Assembly: GCA_902826615.1 (NCBI GenBank)
Contig: CADEFN010000006.1
Coordinates: 248,001 to 312,000, forward strand
Reading direction: 5' to 3'
Source: an uncultured Gemmatimonadota bacterium
Lineage (GTDB): Bacteria > Gemmatimonadota > Gemmatimonadetes > Gemmatimonadales > Gemmatimonadaceae
Length of the DNA stretch: 64,000 nt
Below, one piece after another: positions 6,488-64,000 of this stretch. The notes under the pieces were generated by a model that was not told the origin of the DNA, did no database searches, and worked only from the letters and a program-made list of their open reading frames with translations. Position 1 is the first letter of the stretch. Each line of letters opens with the position of its first letter. The position numbers and the translations under genes were made by a program.

Positions 6488-6763
6488 ATGGAGCTTTCCA
6501 AGAAGACCACCATCCTTTTCTCGCCGGACACCCACGAGCGCCTCACCGCGCTCGCCGCCCGACGCGGCACGAGCCTCGGCGAACTGGTGCGCGAAGCGTG
6601 CGTGGCGCAGTATGGCTTGGTCGATACGGACACTCGTGTCGCGGCCGCACAGGCGCTTGCCGCGTTGACGTTGCCCGTGGGCTCCCCGCATGACATGAAG
6701 CAGGAATCGGTCCCCAGCGCACGGATGCTGATACCGCGCGCTCGATCGCGCACCACGCGGTGA
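6488..6763 (+). CDS. Ribbon-helix-helix antitoxin (VapB-like)
   Basis: A 91-residue protein whose first 45 residues match a ribbon-helix-helix DNA-binding fold: a short beta strand (KKTTILFS) followed by two helices (PDTHERLTALAARRG and SLGELVREACVAQYG). The C-terminal part is of the disordered type that in such antitoxins wraps the toxin. A strong GGAGG lies 5 nt upstream of the ATG at 6488. A PIN-domain toxin gene follows after 25 bp. The pair is expected to be autoregulated by the antitoxin-toxin complex. Confidence 0.82.
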   Translation: MELSKKTTILFSPDTHERLTALAARRGTSLGELVREACVAQYGLVDTDTRVAAAQALAALTLPVGSPHDMKQESVPSARMLIPRARSRTTR

Positions 6764-6788
6764 TCCCTCAGCGTCTCGTGAGCGCCCC

Positions 6789-7187
6789 ATGATTCTCATC
6801 GACGCCAACATCTTCATGTACGCGGCCGGTGCGGCGCATCCTCACAAGGCGCCAAGCGCGCGTTTACTGGAGCGCGTCGCTCGCGGTGAAGTGGCGGCCA
6901 CGATCGACGCAGAAACGCTGCAGGAAATCCTGCATCGCTATCGTGCCATCAAGCGGTGGCGCGATGGACGCCAGGTGTACGATCTCGCGAGGCAATTGTT
7001 TCCCAGCGTTGTGCCCATCTCGGCCGAGATGCTCGACCGTGCCCGCGCCTTGCTGGACCTCCATCCCGCCCTGATGGCACGCGACGCGTTGCACGCGGCG
7101 GTGGTGATGCACGAAGGACTCGATGCCATCTGCAGCTACGATCGCGACTTCGACGTGATCACGGCCCTGTCGCGCATCGAGCCGTGA
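6789..7187 (+). CDS. vapC: PIN-domain ribonuclease toxin (VapC-like)
   Basis: A 132-residue PIN-domain protein of normal length. The four acidic metal-binding positions are present: Asp5 in MILIDANIF, the Glu of ETLQEIL, the Asp of MARDALHAA, and the Asp of SYDRDFD. Such toxins cleave tRNA or rRNA with Mg2+ and are held inactive by the partner antitoxin encoded just upstream. Nothing in the frame is broken, so this is the intact toxin-antitoxin pair of the region; a second pair at 8576-9199 has a damaged toxin. Confidence 0.87.
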   Translation: MILIDANIFMYAAGAAHPHKAPSARLLERVARGEVAATIDAETLQEILHRYRAIKRWRDGRQVYDLARQLFPSVVPISAEMLDRARALLDLHPALMARDALHAAVVMHEGLDAICSYDRDFDVITALSRIEP

Positions 7188-7214
7188 CCGATCTGCGCAC
7201 GCACTCCGCGTGGT

Positions 7215-7385
7215 CCGGCTGCGAACGCGTGGACCGCGACTTGGGGCAGGCCGATCGCCGACTCGCAGCCGTATCCGCCCGACCGAATGCGGAGTCTCGT
7301 CGCGTCGCCCGATGGCGGGACCCGGTACTTCGGTGCGCAGCAGGTCGAGTCGAACATCTGGGTCGTACGGCGGGCCGAGACTAAT
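7215..7385 (+). pseudogene. Relic of a PD40/TolB-like propeller C-terminus
   Basis: One frame reads RSLVASPDGGTRYFGAQQ then VESNIWVVRR. This is the last-blade pattern (SPDGrtiYfgaqqvEsNIWvv) that ends many kinase-PD40 proteins in this group of bacteria. No start codon with a signal or kinase domain precedes it, and no stop follows where such proteins end, so I read it as a leftover 3' fragment between the toxin gene and the convergent kinase remnant. The extent is approximate. Confidence 0.5.
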
Positions 7386-7421
7386 GGTGGACAGGCCCAA
7401 GGCCGCCTGCGGCGACCGCGC

Positions 7422-8315
7422 CTAACGCAGCTTCTCCACCGGTGTCAGTTTTTCGAGCCGGCGCCCGGCTTCGGCCACCCGCGGTTGGAACTCGGGCTCC
7501 GCGTCTTTCCAGAGCGCGATGAATGTGCGGTAGTTGGAGACAGCCTTCGCGGTATCGCCCTTGGCTTCGTACAGTTGGCCGAGGCGCTCGTGCACCATCG
7601 CCCGCAGGAAGTGGGCGTCATTGACGTAGTTTTGCCGACGCGGTGGGATGGCGAGATACCGTTCCATGGTGGCAATCGTGGAGTCGGCCTGGTTCGCCGC
7701 GTCGAACGCCCGGGCGAGACTGATCTGCGCGCACTCTATGCAATCGGCCGGGACGCCGGAGGTATCGGTATCGCTGGCCCGAAACTCACGGATCGCGTCG
7801 GCGAATCGCCGTTCCGCGAGTGCGATGTTGCCGCGAGCTTCATGCCAGGATTGACTCGCTACTCGCTGCACCCCTCCCGGGGTCGTGGACTCGTACCGCG
7901 CCAACACCGCCTTCGCTTTCCCCACCTCACCGGCGCGCGCGTACAGATCGGCGACAGCAAGGCTTGGCTGCTTGTCGGCAACCGCATCGAGACGCCGCAC
8001 CCCCTCCGGCATGCGGCCTCGAAAAACGATATCGAATCTTGCGAGCCCGACACTGTCTCCCGCGGGATCACCGGCGGTGTGAACCGGGACGATGTTCGCG
8101 TGCTGGAGCGCAGCGACGGTCTGGATTTCCCGTTCGAATCGCTCGACGCTGAGGCCCTGGGCGAGTTCGGGCGACAGCACCTTCACCACGACTTTACGCC
8201 TGAGTCGCGTCTCCTCGGCCACGAACACCTTCGACATCCCACCGCCGCCGAGTTCGCGCTCGATGGTGTAGCTGCCGGTCAGGGTGGCCTGAAGCTGGTC
8301 CCGCAGCTGCGTCAC
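7422..8315 (-). pseudogene. Ser/Thr kinase-TPR gene with internal deletion of the catalytic core
   Basis: The frame (GTG at 8315, about 297 residues) starts like an intact kinase receptor: IERELGGGGMSKVFVA, then VVVKVLSPELA, then ALQHANIVPVHTAGD. At about residue 80 it jumps directly to a TPR-like region (LAVADLYARAGEVGKAKAVLA) that in full-length relatives such as the gene at 53535-55952 lies several hundred residues later. The catalytic loop, DFG motif, activation segment, C-lobe and transmembrane helix are absent. The join is in frame, so a fusion protein could still be made, but it cannot be a kinase. The TAG stop sits in a GTTAGGC heptamer. An upstream in-frame ATG at 8423 adds 36 residues of low-complexity sequence and was not used. 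Confidence 0.75.
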
Positions 8316-53538: not shown

Positions 53539-55952
53539 CGCTGCGAACTGAAGCCCACGGTCGTGAGCAGCGCAGGCCAGCTCGGCGTCGCCACCAGCGA
53601 AGCAAAGAGTGGTGATCGGAGTGGCTCGCTCGAAAAGAACGGGTCGCGCAACTCGGCGGCACGTTGCAGAGCGGCGAGTGCGGCACCGGTCTCGCCGAGT
53701 CCGGCATACACCTTGGCCAGGGCCGGTTGCGCGCCGGGGAGGTCAGCAGCGCGTCGCAGCTGCGTGACAAGGGCCCGGGCACCTGCCGTGTCTCCACTTT
53801 TCGCCAGCGCGAAGCCAAGGGTTCCGGTGACCGTGTGGACGCCGGGTGCCAGGCGGCTCGCTTCGCGCAATTCGCTCAGGGCTTCCACGTACTGACCTGC
53901 ATAACACAACACGGTGCCCAGCATGAATCGCGGCACGGCCTGCGACGGATCGGCGTCGATCACCCGACGCAGCAACACCACCGCGGCATCGTGTTCGCCA
54001 CCTAACGACATGGCAACGCCTTGGAGGGCCTGGGGCAGGGGAGCGCCGGCGTCGAGCCGCGCCGCCGCCGCAAAAGCATCTCGAGCCCCCGCGGCATCGC
54101 CCGTGAGGAGGCGGTTCTCTCCCAGCCACTGCATGGCGGTGGCATCGGCGGAGTCGAGCTGGACCGCCCGCGCCAGCGCGACACGCGACGCCTCCCAACG
54201 CCAAACGCCCATATGCAGGTATCCCAGTGCCGCGTGCGCCGGTGCAAGCGTACTGTCGAGGGCGAGCGCGCGTTCGGCGGCTCGTTCGATGCGCCCCGAC
54301 CGATCGATGGCCGCGCCGGTATACAGCGGCAGCACCGCGTGTGCCTGTGCGAGTTCAGCCCAGGCGCGCGCAAAGAGGGAGTCGCCCGCGATCGCCGACT
54401 CGAACCGGGTGATGGCTTCGCGAAGCGATGTTGCCCCACGGCGCTGGAGGAGATAGTGACCGCGGAGGTAGTGATCGTACGCCACCGGGTTGCGTGTGCT
54501 CTCGAGGTCGGGGCCCTGTCCCGCTGTCACTCCTGCGCGTACAACCGCAGCGACGCTGGCCGCTATGGCGCCCTGGAGCGCGTACAGTTCCGTCGCCGGC
54601 CGGTCATACGTTTCCGACCAAACCGCGACGCCATCTGACACATTGGAGAGTTGGGTGGAGATGCGCACACGGTCACCGCGTCGCTGCACGGATCCCTCGA
54701 GCGTCATGGTGACGCCGAGTTGCTGCGCGACGGTAGCTGGTGCGGTGGTGGCGGCCGCCATCGAACGCGCCGCCATGCGTGATGCGACACGAACACCCGG
54801 AACACGCGACAACGCGTTGATGATTTCGTCGGTCACGCCCTGGGCGAGGTAGGCGTCGGCCGTGTCGGATGAGGCCAGCTCGAGTGGGAGCACCGCGATG
54901 GTGGGAGGGCCGGCAGCCGCCTGCTCGCCGCGACCCTTCAGCGCCCATAGTCCCGCGACGGCCAGCAGGAGCACCGCGCCCGCGATGATCAGGGGACGCA
55001 AACGACGACCTGCCGCCGGGCGCGCCTGCGCCGGAATGGAGGCGAGTGAGGGCACGGCACCGCTCACCAGTGCCGGATCATCGAGCGACGCAAGCAGTGC
55101 CTCACCACTTGCCGGGCGTTCGGCGGGATCCTTTGCCAGGCAGCGAGAAACGAGGGCGGCCAGGGCAATCGGAGTGCCAGGCCGCGCAGTCGCCAGGGGT
55201 TCCGGCGTTTGGGTGAGATGCGCGGTCATCACCTCCGCAATCGACGCCCCCGAAAAGGGGGGCCGGCCCGCGAGCATTTCCCACGCCATGATGCCGACGG
55301 AGTAGATGTCGACACGCTGGTCGGCTGCCGGGTCGGCCACCACCTGCTCCGGCGCCATGTAGGCCGGCGTACCTAACGACATTCCCACTCGCGTGAGTGT
55401 GCGAGCGGTGTCCTGCGTCGCGCCGGGGCGAGAATCCACGAGAGCCTTGGCCACGCCAAAGTCGGCGACCACGGCCACACCGCCACTGAGCAGGATGTTG
55501 TCGGGCTTGATGTCACGATGTACGATGCCGCGACCATGCGCGTAGGCCAGCGCACGTGCCACGTCGCGCAGGATGGAGACGACATCGGGGATCAGGAGCG
55601 GCCGGCTGGCGATGCGAGCTCGCAGCGACTCGCCCTCGACCAGCGGCATGATGAAGTACGGGAGATGCCCGGACGTCCCCGCCGCAATCACCGGCACGAT
55701 GTTGGGGTGTTGCAGCCCCGCCGAGAGCATGATCTCGCGATGAAAGCGGTCTGCCGAGAGTCCCTCGGCGACACTTTCGGGGAGGATCTTCACGACCACA
55801 CGCCGGTCCAGCGAAACGTCCCGCGCGACAAAAACGCGTGACATCCCGCCGCCGCCGAGTTCCCGTTCAATCACGAAAGCAGCGCCGAGCGCCTCCTGGA
55901 GGCTGCCTTGCACGTGGTCGGTGGGAGGGGTGCCGCCGGTGGGGGAAGTCAT
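53535..55952 (-). CDS. Transmembrane Ser/Thr kinase with TPR sensor region
   Basis: An 805-residue receptor. The cytoplasmic kinase (residues 25-290) has GGGGMSRVFVA, VVVKILPES, IVHRDIKPDN, ADFGVAK, GTPAYMAPEQ and YSVGIMAWEML, all intact. A TM helix follows at about 322-340 (RPLIIAGAVLLLAVAGLW). The C-terminal part begins with a TolB/adenylate-cyclase-associated region (IAVLPLELASSDTADAYLAQG, then VAQQLGVTMTLEGSVQRRGD) and continues as TPR units (AWAELAQAHAVLPLY, ALGYLHMGVWRWEASRVAL, LGTVLCYAGQYVEALSEL). The gene is alone. It is the full-length counterpart of the deleted gene at 7422-8315. Confidence 0.92.
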   Translation of the reverse strand: MTSPTGGTPPTDHVQGSLQEALGAAFVIERELGGGGMSRVFVARDVSLDRRVVVKILPESVAEGLSADRFHREIMLSAGLQHPNIVPVIAAGTSGHLPYFIMPLVEGESLRARIASRPLLIPDVVSILRDVARALAYAHGRGIVHRDIKPDNILLSGGVAVVADFGVAKALVDSRPGATQDTARTLTRVGMSLGTPAYMAPEQVVADPAADQRVDIYSVGIMAWEMLAGRPPFSGASIAEVMTAHLTQTPEPLATARPGTPIALAALVSRCLAKDPAERPASGEALLASLDDPALVSGAVPSLASIPAQARPAAGRRLRPLIIAGAVLLLAVAGLWALKGRGEQAAAGPPTIAVLPLELASSDTADAYLAQGVTDEIINALSRVPGVRVASRMAARSMAAATTAPATVAQQLGVTMTLEGSVQRRGDRVRISTQLSNVSDGVAVWSETYDRPATELYALQGAIAASVAAVVRAGVTAGQGPDLESTRNPVAYDHYLRGHYLLQRRGATSLREAITRFESAIAGDSLFARAWAELAQAHAVLPLYTGAAIDRSGRIERAAERALALDSTLAPAHAALGYLHMGVWRWEASRVALARAVQLDSADATAMQWLGENRLLTGDAAGARDAFAAAARLDAGAPLPQALQGVAMSLGGEHDAAVVLLRRVIDADPSQAVPRFMLGTVLCYAGQYVEALSELREASRLAPGVHTVTGTLGFALAKSGDTAGARALVTQLRRAADLPGAQPALAKVYAGLGETGAALAALQRAAELRDPFFSSEPLRSPLFASLVATPSWPALLTTVGFSSQR

Positions 55953-56014
55953 GGGCTCGGGTTAGTCTACTGGGCTGTGACAACTATGACAGCCGAAAGG
56001 GACGACCCGTTTGC

Positions 56015-56370
56015 CAGAAGCCGTCCAGCGAAGCTGGGAGCGGCTGGTCACACCATCGCAGGCGTACGAACCTATGGACGGCGCGCGTCTCGAGCAGACC
56101 GCGGTGGAGGCGGTGTACGCCCCGCGCAGACCGGTACACCCACCGTCACACCTGTCATGTGACGGTTTTCGTCCCACGCGGAGCGGTGCGGATGGGGGTC
56201 CGTGGCGCGCCGGATGCCGTGTATCGGGTTGGGGAGGTGTTTTCATGAACGCCCCTCCGATGTACACCAGGGTCCGCGCCAATGCCAGCGCCACGGACTC
56301 GGCAGCATTCACTGCAACGTTTGTCTGTGACCGCGATGGCCCACTCACCTCGCAAGCTACGGACCGCTAG
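56015..56370 (+). pseudogene. Cupin pseudogene, paralogue of 57524-57958
   Basis: Three consecutive segments in changing frames match the intact cupin: MDGARLEQTAVEAVYAP in one frame, THRHTCHVTVFVPRGAVRMG with GAPDAVYRVGEVF in a second, and RVRANASATDSAAFTATF with VCDRDG back in the first. Two frameshifts are therefore needed, one at about 56122-56140 and one near 56243. The signal peptide is missing. The two cupins flank the SDR gene and are about 1.5 kb apart. Confidence 0.82.
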
Positions 56371-56397: not shown

Positions 56398-57357
56398 TCA
56401 GGGGGCCTTGAGCCGCGCCAGCGCCTCATCGAGCATCTTCACCAGTGCTTCGCGGTCGTAGCTGAAGGCGTGCCCCTGATTGAGTTGCACGAGTTCCTCG
56501 ATCTGCTTGCGAATGGTGACCTCCGCCTGGCGAGCGGCGGGCACTACCATGTAACGCGCCTGCGGTTTGGGGTTGCGGATGGCGTCGAGTGCGGCGAGGG
56601 CCACGGCATCCGGCTCCGGATAATTGTCGTAGTTGCCCATGGCGGCCACCATGTTCTTCATCTGCGGTTCGAACGGTGTGCCCTTGGAGCGTTCGAGAGC
56701 GGCCTCGACCTGCGCCAGGGTGTTGCGTCCGATCTCGGAGCGGTAGTTGCCCGGCTCGATCGAGCTGACGCCAACCCCGAAACGTGTCATCTCGGCGCCT
56801 AGCGCGTCGCCATACGCCTCGACGGCGTGTTTGCTCATACTGTACGGGCCAAAGAGGGGGCCGGAGAGGATCCCCGAAATGGAGGAGATGTTCACCACGC
56901 GCCCTTTGGAGGCGATAATCAGTGGGGCAACGGCCCGTGTCACCCGCCACACCCCAAACACATTCACTTCAAACAGATCGCGGAGTTCGCGTTCGTCGAC
57001 GTCGATGAGTGGAGCGGCCATGGCGATGCCGGCGTTGTTCACCACACCATACAGTCCACGTCCGCGCTGCTTGATCAAGTCCACCACGGCGGCAACGTCG
57101 GCCGGGCTGGTGACGTCGAGGCGAACCCCTTCCATGTTGGGAATCTTCGAGAGGGCCGCGATGTCCTCGGGCTTGCGCGCACCAGCGTAGACGTGAAAGC
57201 CCTGCGTCGCGAGTGTCTCGGCGATCTTCCTGCCGATGCCTGAGCTGGCGCCGGTCACGAGTACGGCGGCTCCAGGTGCAGGCTGCGCGGCGAGGGACGG
57301 GGAAAAGGTTGTCGCGACGACGCAGGAAAGGGTGCCCAGCAGGTGACGAAGACGCAT
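56398..57357 (-). CDS. Exported short-chain dehydrogenase/reductase (SDR)
   Basis: An SDR of about 319 residues with an N-terminal signal-like segment (RLRHLLGTLSCVVATTF, ending SLAAQP) before the Rossmann fold. Motifs are intact: TGASSGIG cofactor loop, LDVTSP, VVNNAGIAMA, the catalytic Ser in NISSISG, and Tyr-Lys in YSMSKHA. Most SDRs are cytoplasmic, so the leader is unusual; it may be real export or a membrane anchor. The gene lies between a cupin pseudogene and an intact cupin, which points to a duplicated cupin unit rather than an operon. Substrate unknown. Confidence 0.87.
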   Translation of the reverse strand: MRLRHLLGTLSCVVATTFSPSLAAQPAPGAAVLVTGASSGIGRKIAETLATQGFHVYAGARKPEDIAALSKIPNMEGVRLDVTSPADVAAVVDLIKQRGRGLYGVVNNAGIAMAAPLIDVDERELRDLFEVNVFGVWRVTRAVAPLIIASKGRVVNISSISGILSGPLFGPYSMSKHAVEAYGDALGAEMTRFGVGVSSIEPGNYRSEIGRNTLAQVEAALERSKGTPFEPQMKNMVAAMGNYDNYPEPDAVALAALDAIRNPKPQARYMVVPAARQAEVTIRKQIEELVQLNQGHAFSYDREALVKMLDEALARLKAP

Positions 57358-57523
57358 GAGAGTCATGGGATGGAGTTCGTCGGGAAAGCTATTCGAACGA
57401 GGGGAGCTAGGGACCCGCGTTGGGGCAGGCCGTAACGGTGAAGGGACGTTCCCCGCCGATGCGTGCCGGTCATCCCGTGAGTGTTGTGCAATGCGGCGCC
57501 ACTTTCCTACCTTCTCCAGTCAT

Positions 57524-57958
57524 ATGACCCAACTTCGACTGGCAGTAATCGTATTCGGTGCGGTCGCCCTCCCCTGGGGAGCGTCCGCCGTCATCCCCTC
57601 GGCCAATGCTCGTCAGACGGGACGAAGCCGCCTGGTGTTCGAGCAAAAGCTCGACGTCATGGATGGCACGAAACTCAAGCAGACAGTTGTTGAGGTGGTT
57701 TATGCGCCGGGGCAGTCCGGCGCGCCGCATCGACACAACTGCCATGTGACGGTGTTTGTGACTCGTGGCGCCGTACGCATGGGGGTGCGTGGTGCGCCGG
57801 ATTCCGTCTACCAGGTGGGGCAGGTATTCCATGAGCGCCCGTCAGACGTACATCAGGTCGGCGCAAATGCCAGTGCGACGGACTCGGCGGCCTTCACCGC
57901 GACATTTGTCTGTGACCGTGATGGCCAGCTGACACTTCCAGCGAGCGCCACGCAATGA
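57524..57958 (+). CDS. Secreted cupin-fold protein
   Basis: A 144-residue exported protein starting at the ATG of MTQLRLAVIVF; the signal peptide ends near GASA. The cupin barrel is small, with a metal-binding pattern APHRHNCHVTVFVTRGAVRM (His, His, His) and later VFHERPSDVHQVGANAS. This resembles single-domain cupins that bind a divalent metal and may act on small molecules. An upstream in-frame ATG at 57491 would lengthen the signal. It is the intact twin of the pseudogene at 56015-56370. Confidence 0.82.
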   Translation: MTQLRLAVIVFGAVALPWGASAVIPSANARQTGRSRLVFEQKLDVMDGTKLKQTVVEVVYAPGQSGAPHRHNCHVTVFVTRGAVRMGVRGAPDSVYQVGQVFHERPSDVHQVGANASATDSAAFTATFVCDRDGQLTLPASATQ

Positions 57959-62665: not shown

Positions 62666-64000
62666 TCAGGGGCTCGGCGGCCCCTGGTCCGCTGCGGGCT
62701 GGGACGCGTCGAGCAACCGAATGAGTTTGCCGTTCGGTGCGTCGAACGCGTCGCGTGTCAGTGAGAAGCCGAACACCTTGCCCAGGTCATCCGCAGGGTA
62801 GGGAAGGGGGGGATGCCGATCGTCAAACTGCCAGTACGACCAGCCCAGCGCGCCGACGAGCAACCCACCGCCATCGCGAACAAACTGCGCGATGATTGGC
62901 ACGTCCCGTTCGGCAAATCCCTCGGGTGCAATCCAGTCACTCAGGTACCAGAGCACGTCAACGCACCGCAGTTCGTCGCGCAATCGTGTTTTGTCGAGCG
63001 CACTCATCGTCCAGCCGCGACGCCTGACAGACTCCTCCACGAGTGTCATGCGAGCGAGCGTCGCATACGTGCCACTCCACACCCCAACGTGCGGCGGACC
63101 GGCGGGGCACTCCCCTTGTCGTTGTGCAGCGAGACCACCTCCCGCGGCACCAAGCCAGCGCAGCGCATTCTCCGCGAACTGCAGATTGTCACCGTCGTAT
63201 CGCAACTCGTCGTCCAGGGTGAGCCCATCGTGTGCATACACGAGCACATGTCCAGCGCCAAAATCGCGCGCCACGATGAAATCCACCGCTTCGGCACTAT
63301 CGGCATTGATCAGCGGCAGTTCAGGCGGAATGCGACTGAGCGAGAGCCAGGCACCGCCGTCGCCGGCGGGTGCCGCTGCACACCAGGGCTGCACGCAGAC
63401 GCTGCCGGGATTGCCCGCCTCCATCGACAGATTGAGCGCCGAAAAGAGTCCACGGAGTGTGCGCACCTTTTCGGCTTCGGCGCGCTCGGCCTCTTGTTGT
63501 GCGATGATGCTGGCCGCCTCTGCGCGTCTCCACTGGACCGCGCTGACAATCGCGGAGACAGCGATCAGCGCCGTTACGCCCGCGGCGATGGCCATCTGGA
63601 TACGCCGTCCGCGGATGCTGCGCCGCGCGAACGCCCTCTCGCGACGATTCAGCCACGGTGCCTTGCTGCGCACGAGCGGCGACAACTGTGCACTGCGCGA
63701 TGCATCGCTCCAGAGCAAACCCGATTTCGCAGCCGGTGCCGCACTATCCCACTCCGCCGCCGACCGACCGAGCCGTTGCTGTTGCGCGAGTGGGAAGGGT
63801 TTCTCGTTCTCTTCGCGCAGCCATTGCAGGAGCCGTCCCCATGTACGCACGAGCGCGTCGTGCGCGGGCTCGACGAAGGGCTCGCCGTCGGGCTCTTTCC
63901 CTTCGACAAGCAATCGTGATTCGGTGAATTGGTGCACGACGGCCTTTGCTCGCTGCTGTTCCGCCTCTTCGGGGAAGTCCAGCTCGGCGTTCGTGGCGCG
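62666..64000 (-). CDS. STAND NTPase (nSTAND1-like) C-terminal part with GATase-like domain, runs off right edge
   Basis: The frame is open at base 64000, so the N-terminal NTPase is outside the window; about 444 residues are present. First comes the winged-helix-like segment typical after an nSTAND1 ATPase (VHQFTESRLLVEG, then FVEPAHDALVRTWGRLLQWL). A TM helix follows (MAIAAGVTALIAVSAIVSAV), then an amphipathic coiled region (ASIIAQQEAERAEAEKVRTL). In the nSTAND1 proteins I know, WD40 repeats come next. Here instead is a Rossmann-like domain (HVLVYAHDGL, CVDVLWYLSDW, DGGGLLVGALGWSYWQF) resembling the class I GATase-like domain in TCAF and M60-peptidase proteins. STAND proteins act as switches in signalling, cell death and defence; the role here is unknown. 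Confidence 0.82.
   Translation of the reverse strand, partial: RATNAELDFPEEAEQQRAKAVVHQFTESRLLVEGKEPDGEPFVEPAHDALVRTWGRLLQWLREENEKPFPLAQQQRLGRSAAEWDSAAPAAKSGLLWSDASRSAQLSPLVRSKAPWLNRRERAFARRSIRGRRIQMAIAAGVTALIAVSAIVSAVQWRRAEAASIIAQQEAERAEAEKVRTLRGLFSALNLSMEAGNPGSVCVQPWCAAAPAGDGGAWLSLSRIPPELPLINADSAEAVDFIVARDFGAGHVLVYAHDGLTLDDELRYDGDNLQFAENALRWLGAAGGGLAAQRQGECPAGPPHVGVWSGTYATLARMTLVEESVRRRGWTMSALDKTRLRDELRCVDVLWYLSDWIAPEGFAERDVPIIAQFVRDGGGLLVGALGWSYWQFDDRHPPLPYPADDLGKVFGFSLTRDAFDAPNGKLIRLLDASQPAADQGPPSP

Follow-up and report, generated by a model that had tools for sequence, protein, structure and literature searches.

The window analyzed here is a 64,000-nucleotide stretch of DNA (C6:248001–312000) from a Gemmatimonadota genome of 5.9 Mb in 98 contigs (G000). 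At its right end, a minus-strand reading frame (62666–64000) runs out of the window without a stop. On the host contig, the frame extends to a 1,036-aa open reading frame (ORF; L002:5667–8777), and the gene reaches what would be window position 65776. The part inside the window encodes the C-terminal 444 residues (593–1036 of 1,036) of a protein in which a caspase (Peptidase_C14), an nSTAND1 NTPase, a single transmembrane (TM) helix, and a 265-residue C-terminal domain, referred to below as GATase-like, follow one another. A Pfam scan of the 1,036-aa protein gave no assignment beyond Peptidase_C14 and nSTAND1. The GC content of the gene is similar to that of the flanking DNA. A preliminary description of the window had proposed a STAND NTPase with a winged helix, a TM segment, coiled segments, and a C-terminal domain with GGGLLVGALGWSYWQF, its N-terminal part lying outside the window. 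All these elements are present, the linker being charged and Ala/Glu-rich, and residues 1–592 were recovered from the host contig. The rightward extension suggested at that time yielded the NTPase together with a caspase effector that is not visible in the window.

The Peptidase_C14 match covers residues 10–260 (E 1.4e-16, Pfam, full protein). The caspase dyad His87/Cys139 is intact, within the motifs FAGHG (84–88) and DSCFSG (137–142), and both residues are kept in all four complete proteins of the GATase-like type; the predicted effector is a caspase with an intact dyad. The nSTAND1 module (PF20703) spans residues 292–679, with an E value of 1e-98 on the full protein and 1e-11 on the window part alone, and its Walker A (GASGAGKS, 331–338) and Walker B (LVIDQFEE, 407–414) motifs are intact, which bears out the STAND assignment. 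The end of the module, its winged-helix part (residues 593–679), lies at 63740–64000 on the minus strand.

Further along the same strand come one strong hydrophobic helix, predicted to span the membrane (residues 729–747; 63536–63592), an Ala/Glu/Gln-rich linker (63473–63535), and the GATase-like domain (residues 769–1036 plus the stop codon; 62666–63472). In every complete protein, the C-terminal domain contains exactly four cysteines, and all four are invariant across the five STAND C-termini available (see below). In the window protein, they are Cys794 and Cys799 in the motif CVQPWC (63380–63397), Cys890 (63107–63109), and Cys938 (62963–62965), all on the minus strand. Outside this domain, the window protein has only two cysteines, both in the caspase.

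The gene looks like a stand-alone one. The neighbors, named from sequence reading, are a TrmL-like methyltransferase downstream and, upstream, a divergent PadR-type regulator and a MacB-type permease, followed by HtrA and DnaK. A search with PADLOC matched the window gene to none of the known anti-phage systems, multi- or single-gene; the best match of its product was to a generic caspase model (E 5.3e-12), and the others were weak and located at the P-loop. Among two upstream neighbors, the MacB-type permease had no PADLOC match, and the HtrA-like protease had only protease-type matches. No defense or mobile genes adjoin the gene in the survey of its neighborhood. The role in defense or cell death suggested for it in the preliminary description is plausible from the domain set, but support from the neighborhood is absent at this locus. 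Elsewhere in the window, a gene for a small cupin-like protein (VYAPGQSGAPHRHNCHVTVFVTRGAVRMGVRGAPD...) lies at 57356–57958 on the plus strand. A second copy, about 1.5 kb 5′ of it on the same strand (about 55838–56370), is split over several frames and is apparently a decayed duplicate.

Genome searches of two groups detected the C-terminal domain in four further genomes at 49 to 54% identity. A genome of the same genus (G003, locus L015) carries a copy 50% identical to that of the window protein, and a search of a genome collection revealed the domain in a Vicinamibacterales genome (L014). When 396 genomes of the phylum of the latter were searched, two more carriers were found (G590 and G732), bringing the total there to 3 of 396. 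The domain is present in 2 of 60 relatives searched, and among 395 sampled genomes of the window phylum only the window genome and two doubtful fragments were recovered. Each carrier genome has one strong match. The four complete proteins agree in the order caspase, nSTAND1, TM helix, GATase-like domain; the L014 copy (L014:4343–8756) is broken: its caspase part falls in two separate frames, and a transposase ORF (6543–7829) separates the NTPase from the C-terminal domain. Recurrence at this level of identity in four genomes besides that of the window shows that the domain is conserved and did not arise by chance; the sequences form a real, rare family. Conservation across five genomes, each with a single copy, excludes a chance or mistranslated frame. 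Viral contigs, plasmids, and phages searched with the C-terminus gave no match, and a phage- or plasmid-borne origin of the domain was rejected on this ground. Next to the same-genus copy, on its 3′ side, lies a gene with a TM segment and WD40 repeats that is cut by the contig end (L015:6608–7630).

The preliminary description held that the domain occupies the place of a WD40 region. No WD40 model of Pfam matches the window protein, and an ordinary WD40 variant was rejected accordingly. The replacement itself became evident from a gene in another genus of the same family (G007; L082:4190–8821). Its product, of 1,543 residues, shares the caspase, nSTAND1, and membrane helix with the window protein and is 65% identical to it through this part, and then continues into about 780 amino acids with WD40 repeats (PF00400, E 4e-34), in contrast to the 265-aa GATase-like domain. 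Binned identity between the two proteins is 50 to 88% in nearly all bins and falls at the membrane helix and linker, where the similarity ends. Plasmid-borne caspase-nSTAND1-WD40 genes of Nostoc and Allocoleopsis have the same caspase and NTPase at ~45% identity.

A tree was built from the N-terminal part common to these proteins; its groups are named by the C-termini, which the tree itself excludes. In it, the window protein pairs with the WD40 protein of G007 (support 99/97), apart from the remaining GATase-like proteins. The tree comprises only eight sequences, including an incomplete one with a long branch, and its well-supported branches require the C-terminus to have changed at least twice. 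When the GATase-like rows were constrained to group together, p-AU was 0.00024 with five rows and 0.011 with four. Since the window gene pairs with a WD40 gene and not with other GATase-like ones, the C-terminus was probably exchanged more than once. The swap may have run either way, through acquisition of the GATase-like domain in the window lineage or of WD40 in G007.

We next consider the relationship of the domain to M60 peptidases, which cleave glycoproteins. In L029, a 1,241-aa ORF of the second phylum that was identified solely through its M60 domain and contains M60-like_N and Peptidase_M60, the stretch upstream of both aligns with the STAND C-termini, and a profile built on the five STAND domains scores this stretch above 5,000 shuffles. 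A mixed profile of six sequences (the five STAND domains and L029) then recovered two M60 proteins of Gemmatimonadota, L061 (4046–7060) and L062 (839–4969), in which the match is again upstream of the M60 part. To guard against circularity, hhalign and reciprocal comparisons were run with profiles built from each side alone; L061 and L062 had nevertheless been selected for similarity, via a profile that already contained STAND domains. The alignment of the five STAND domains with the three M60-linked domains gave E 2.9e-8 at a probability of 95% over 147 columns. The STAND-only profile detected the three M60-linked domains at E 2.1e-5, 0.0015, and 0.0019 (best of 9,000 shuffles, 0.29), and the M60-only profile detected the five STAND C-termini at E 2.8e-11, 2e-9, 6.4e-8, 4.8e-6, and 0.004 (best of 10,000 shuffles, 0.29). 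Both sets share the motif order of a G-[HR]-[VM] strand with (H)DG, an A-x-x-W helix, a GGL-x-W strand, and a [PA]-x-[ND] loop. These comparisons support homology between the C-terminal domain and the domain beside M60 peptidases, as had been supposed at the outset.

Six full matches of the mixed profile in Gemmatimonadota were inspected, namely the two M60 proteins and four ABC-auxiliary/GldG-like proteins; the latter share just one or two of the motifs and were set aside as superfamily-level or chance similarities. In L029, L061, and L062, the domain 5′ of M60-like_N is without a Pfam model, yet it is present in two phyla. The M60 relatives are large multidomain proteins that look secreted, and two contain Ig-like repeats. 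The window protein differs from them in that its domain is C-terminal and fused to the STAND-caspase, has four cysteines and an N-terminal extension of its own, and is accompanied by no M60 peptidase; PF13402 (Peptidase_M60) does not match the complete STAND proteins.

No Pfam model covers the C-terminal domain, and an NCBIfam search returned only noise. The eight STAND and M60-linked sequences gave weak Pfam matches to ThuA (three members, best 0.04), DUF4350 (0.011), ABC_transp_aux (0.086), and GATase1_like (0.16), all of which we take to be class I GATase-like families, and one stray match to Hjc (0.22). The preliminary description had also likened the domain to that of TCAF proteins, which are eukaryotic and combine an M60 domain with a GATase-like domain; a PDB sequence search with the STAND and M60-linked domains gave nothing meaningful, and no TCAF chain matched. 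A structure model built on three sequences (pLDDT 55) was of too low quality. With all eight sequences, the AlphaFold model (pLDDT 64) shows an alternating alpha/beta core with blocks at 80 to 93, and its first 64 residues, containing two of the four conserved cysteines, are below 50. A Foldseek search with this model of low-to-moderate confidence returned no match at E ≤ 0.001; peptidase E (3l4e and 7c9b) headed the list of matches, all at E above 0.001 and with TM-scores of 0.24 to 0.36. The weak Pfam matches and the alpha/beta order in the model make a class I GATase-like fold likely, though short of proven. The catalytic triad of that superfamily is not recognizable in the window domain. 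In all eight sequences, the elbow after the GGGL (GGGLLVG) strand has no cysteine, and a conserved His-Glu pair toward the C-terminus is likewise absent. The missing cysteine after the GGGL strand makes a working amidotransferase unlikely, and the domain appears divergent and probably non-catalytic.

The N-terminal flank of the TM helix in the window protein contains six Lys and Arg and no Asp or Glu; on the C-terminal side, there are two of each kind. In the G732 relative and the WD40 sibling of G007, the flank charges are nearly alike on both sides. Because the N-flank of the window protein is strongly positive, a cytoplasmic N side and a periplasmic C-terminus are favored; judged by this charge rule and the cysteine pattern, the caspase and NTPase most likely lie in the cytoplasm and the C-terminus in the periplasm. 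The four invariant cysteines could pair into two disulfides, and two periplasmic disulfides would explain the pattern.

Several described systems resemble the window protein in part. The metacaspase-NACHT-WD40 architecture, which is widespread (PMC3501461), has the same layout of caspase and STAND NTPase, in place of whose WD40 repeats the window protein has a GATase-like C-terminus. One described conflict system includes caspase proteins in which TM helices are followed by an extracellular periplasmic-binding domain (PMC7159879). In the membrane-associated, two-gene EACC1 caspase System 4, a constant caspase is likewise combined with interchangeable C-termini, including STAND and TM with a periplasmic-binding domain (PMC7159879). 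That system apparently differs in having a co-oriented EACC1 gene on the 5′ side; a divergent PadR-type gene lies upstream of the window gene, and reading of the sequences there showed no convincing co-oriented small EACC1-like gene. A search of the open literature, with subscription papers outside its scope, returned no description of a TCAF/GATase link or of the caspase-nSTAND1-TM-GATase-like architecture. Each half of the protein is of a known kind. The open literature searched yielded no account of the two combined, of the swap pair, or of the M60-linked domain at what is likely a sensor position.

Further caspase-like genes were noted during the analysis. The host genome has at least four more such ORFs (C1:1097767–1101673, C8:39924–40631, C5:378195–378899, and C6:86500–86967), one of which lies ~3 kb from another nSTAND1 ORF, of 1,471 residues. 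The caspase-nSTAND1 genes of G732, G590, and two cyanobacterial plasmids are each preceded upstream by a co-oriented second gene for a clan CD peptidase (L022:8593–9975 and L021:10381–13821, both on the minus strand, L083:1843–3855, and L084:1698–3830), encoding a clostripain (C11), a C14 peptidase with DUF7379, or a C14 caspase. Such pairs hint at a possible caspase cascade; the window gene has no second clan CD peptidase beside it.

In bacterial STAND systems, the C-terminal domain senses, the NTPase oligomerizes, and effectors are brought together (PMC7159879, PMC10907252). By analogy with this C-terminal position in STAND proteins, the GATase-like domain would have a sensing role. It is reasonably probable, in our judgment, that the window gene encodes a single-protein membrane receptor in which a periplasmic ligand-binding domain controls a cytoplasmic STAND-caspase switch. 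The caspase (His87/Cys139) and nSTAND1 would be held in the cytoplasm, tethered by one TM helix to the periplasmic domain, which takes the place of the WD40 sensor in the close relative. An envelope or extracellular ligand, such as a glycan, glycopeptide, or protein, would on binding free the NTPase to take up ATP and oligomerize; the oligomer would gather the caspase domains, and cleavage of cellular targets would lead to dormancy or death. Of this model, the sequence comparisons establish the order of the domains, the intact catalytic and nucleotide-binding motifs, the homology to the M60-linked domain, and the modular exchange with WD40, whereas topology, disulfides, ligand sensing, oligomerization, and outcome are inferred.

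The same domain set could also serve inside the cell. The tripartite effector-STAND-sensor layout is that of characterized antiviral STANDs (PMC10907252), PADLOC matches its caspase model to the protein, and the WD40-bearing sibling has the same membrane helix, which would suit an immune receptor whose cytoplasmic C-terminus senses phage or another intracellular ligand in the manner of Avs-type STANDs and whose caspase triggers abortive infection. We consider this unlikely given the strong hydrophobic helix with its positive N-flank, the four invariant cysteines of the C-terminal domain, the secreted appearance of the M60-linked relatives, and the lack of a defense neighborhood. It is far less probable still that the C-terminal domain is itself an amidotransferase or hydrolase acting on an envelope substrate, the protein being an envelope-processing enzyme regulated by the STAND-caspase. 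The weak similarity to ThuA, DUF4350, ABC_transp_aux, and GATase1_like and the many polar invariants (D82, N102, W175, S178, D179, and W211) are compatible with an enzyme; the elbow and His-Glu features described above speak against it, as does the location of the invariant cysteines away from the elbow.

A role outside death or defense, in which the caspase would cleave a specific regulator during envelope stress or development, also seems rather unlikely. The gene is single-copy, resembles its surroundings in GC content, and has no mobile or defense neighbors, and the PadR-type regulator and MacB-type permease upstream, with HtrA and DnaK further on, would fit such regulated proteolysis. However, the distribution is very patchy, both among the relatives and in the second phylum, and in the window phylum the domain is confined to the window genome and the two doubtful fragments; the swapping of C-termini and the broken copy, too, fit conflict genes better than core regulation.

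The membrane-receptor reading can be extended to a tentative idea, possible rather than probable, that glycan or glycoprotein signals are sensed in the periplasm by the M60-linked GATase-like domain and that this lineage has a one-component TM caspase death receptor, obtained through sensor exchange of an apoptosome-like STAND-caspase. The window and G007 genes form a natural domain-swap pair, one caspase-STAND engine of 65% identity with two C-termini. This pair allows a test of whether the response of a bacterial caspase-STAND switch is determined by its C-terminal domain. For the unassigned M60-adjacent domain, the STAND-caspase provides a further setting, in which it likely binds a ligand or acts as a sensor. 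Overall, these results point to receptor-like caspases reading the periplasm and suggest that different sensors can be plugged into bacterial cell-death switches.
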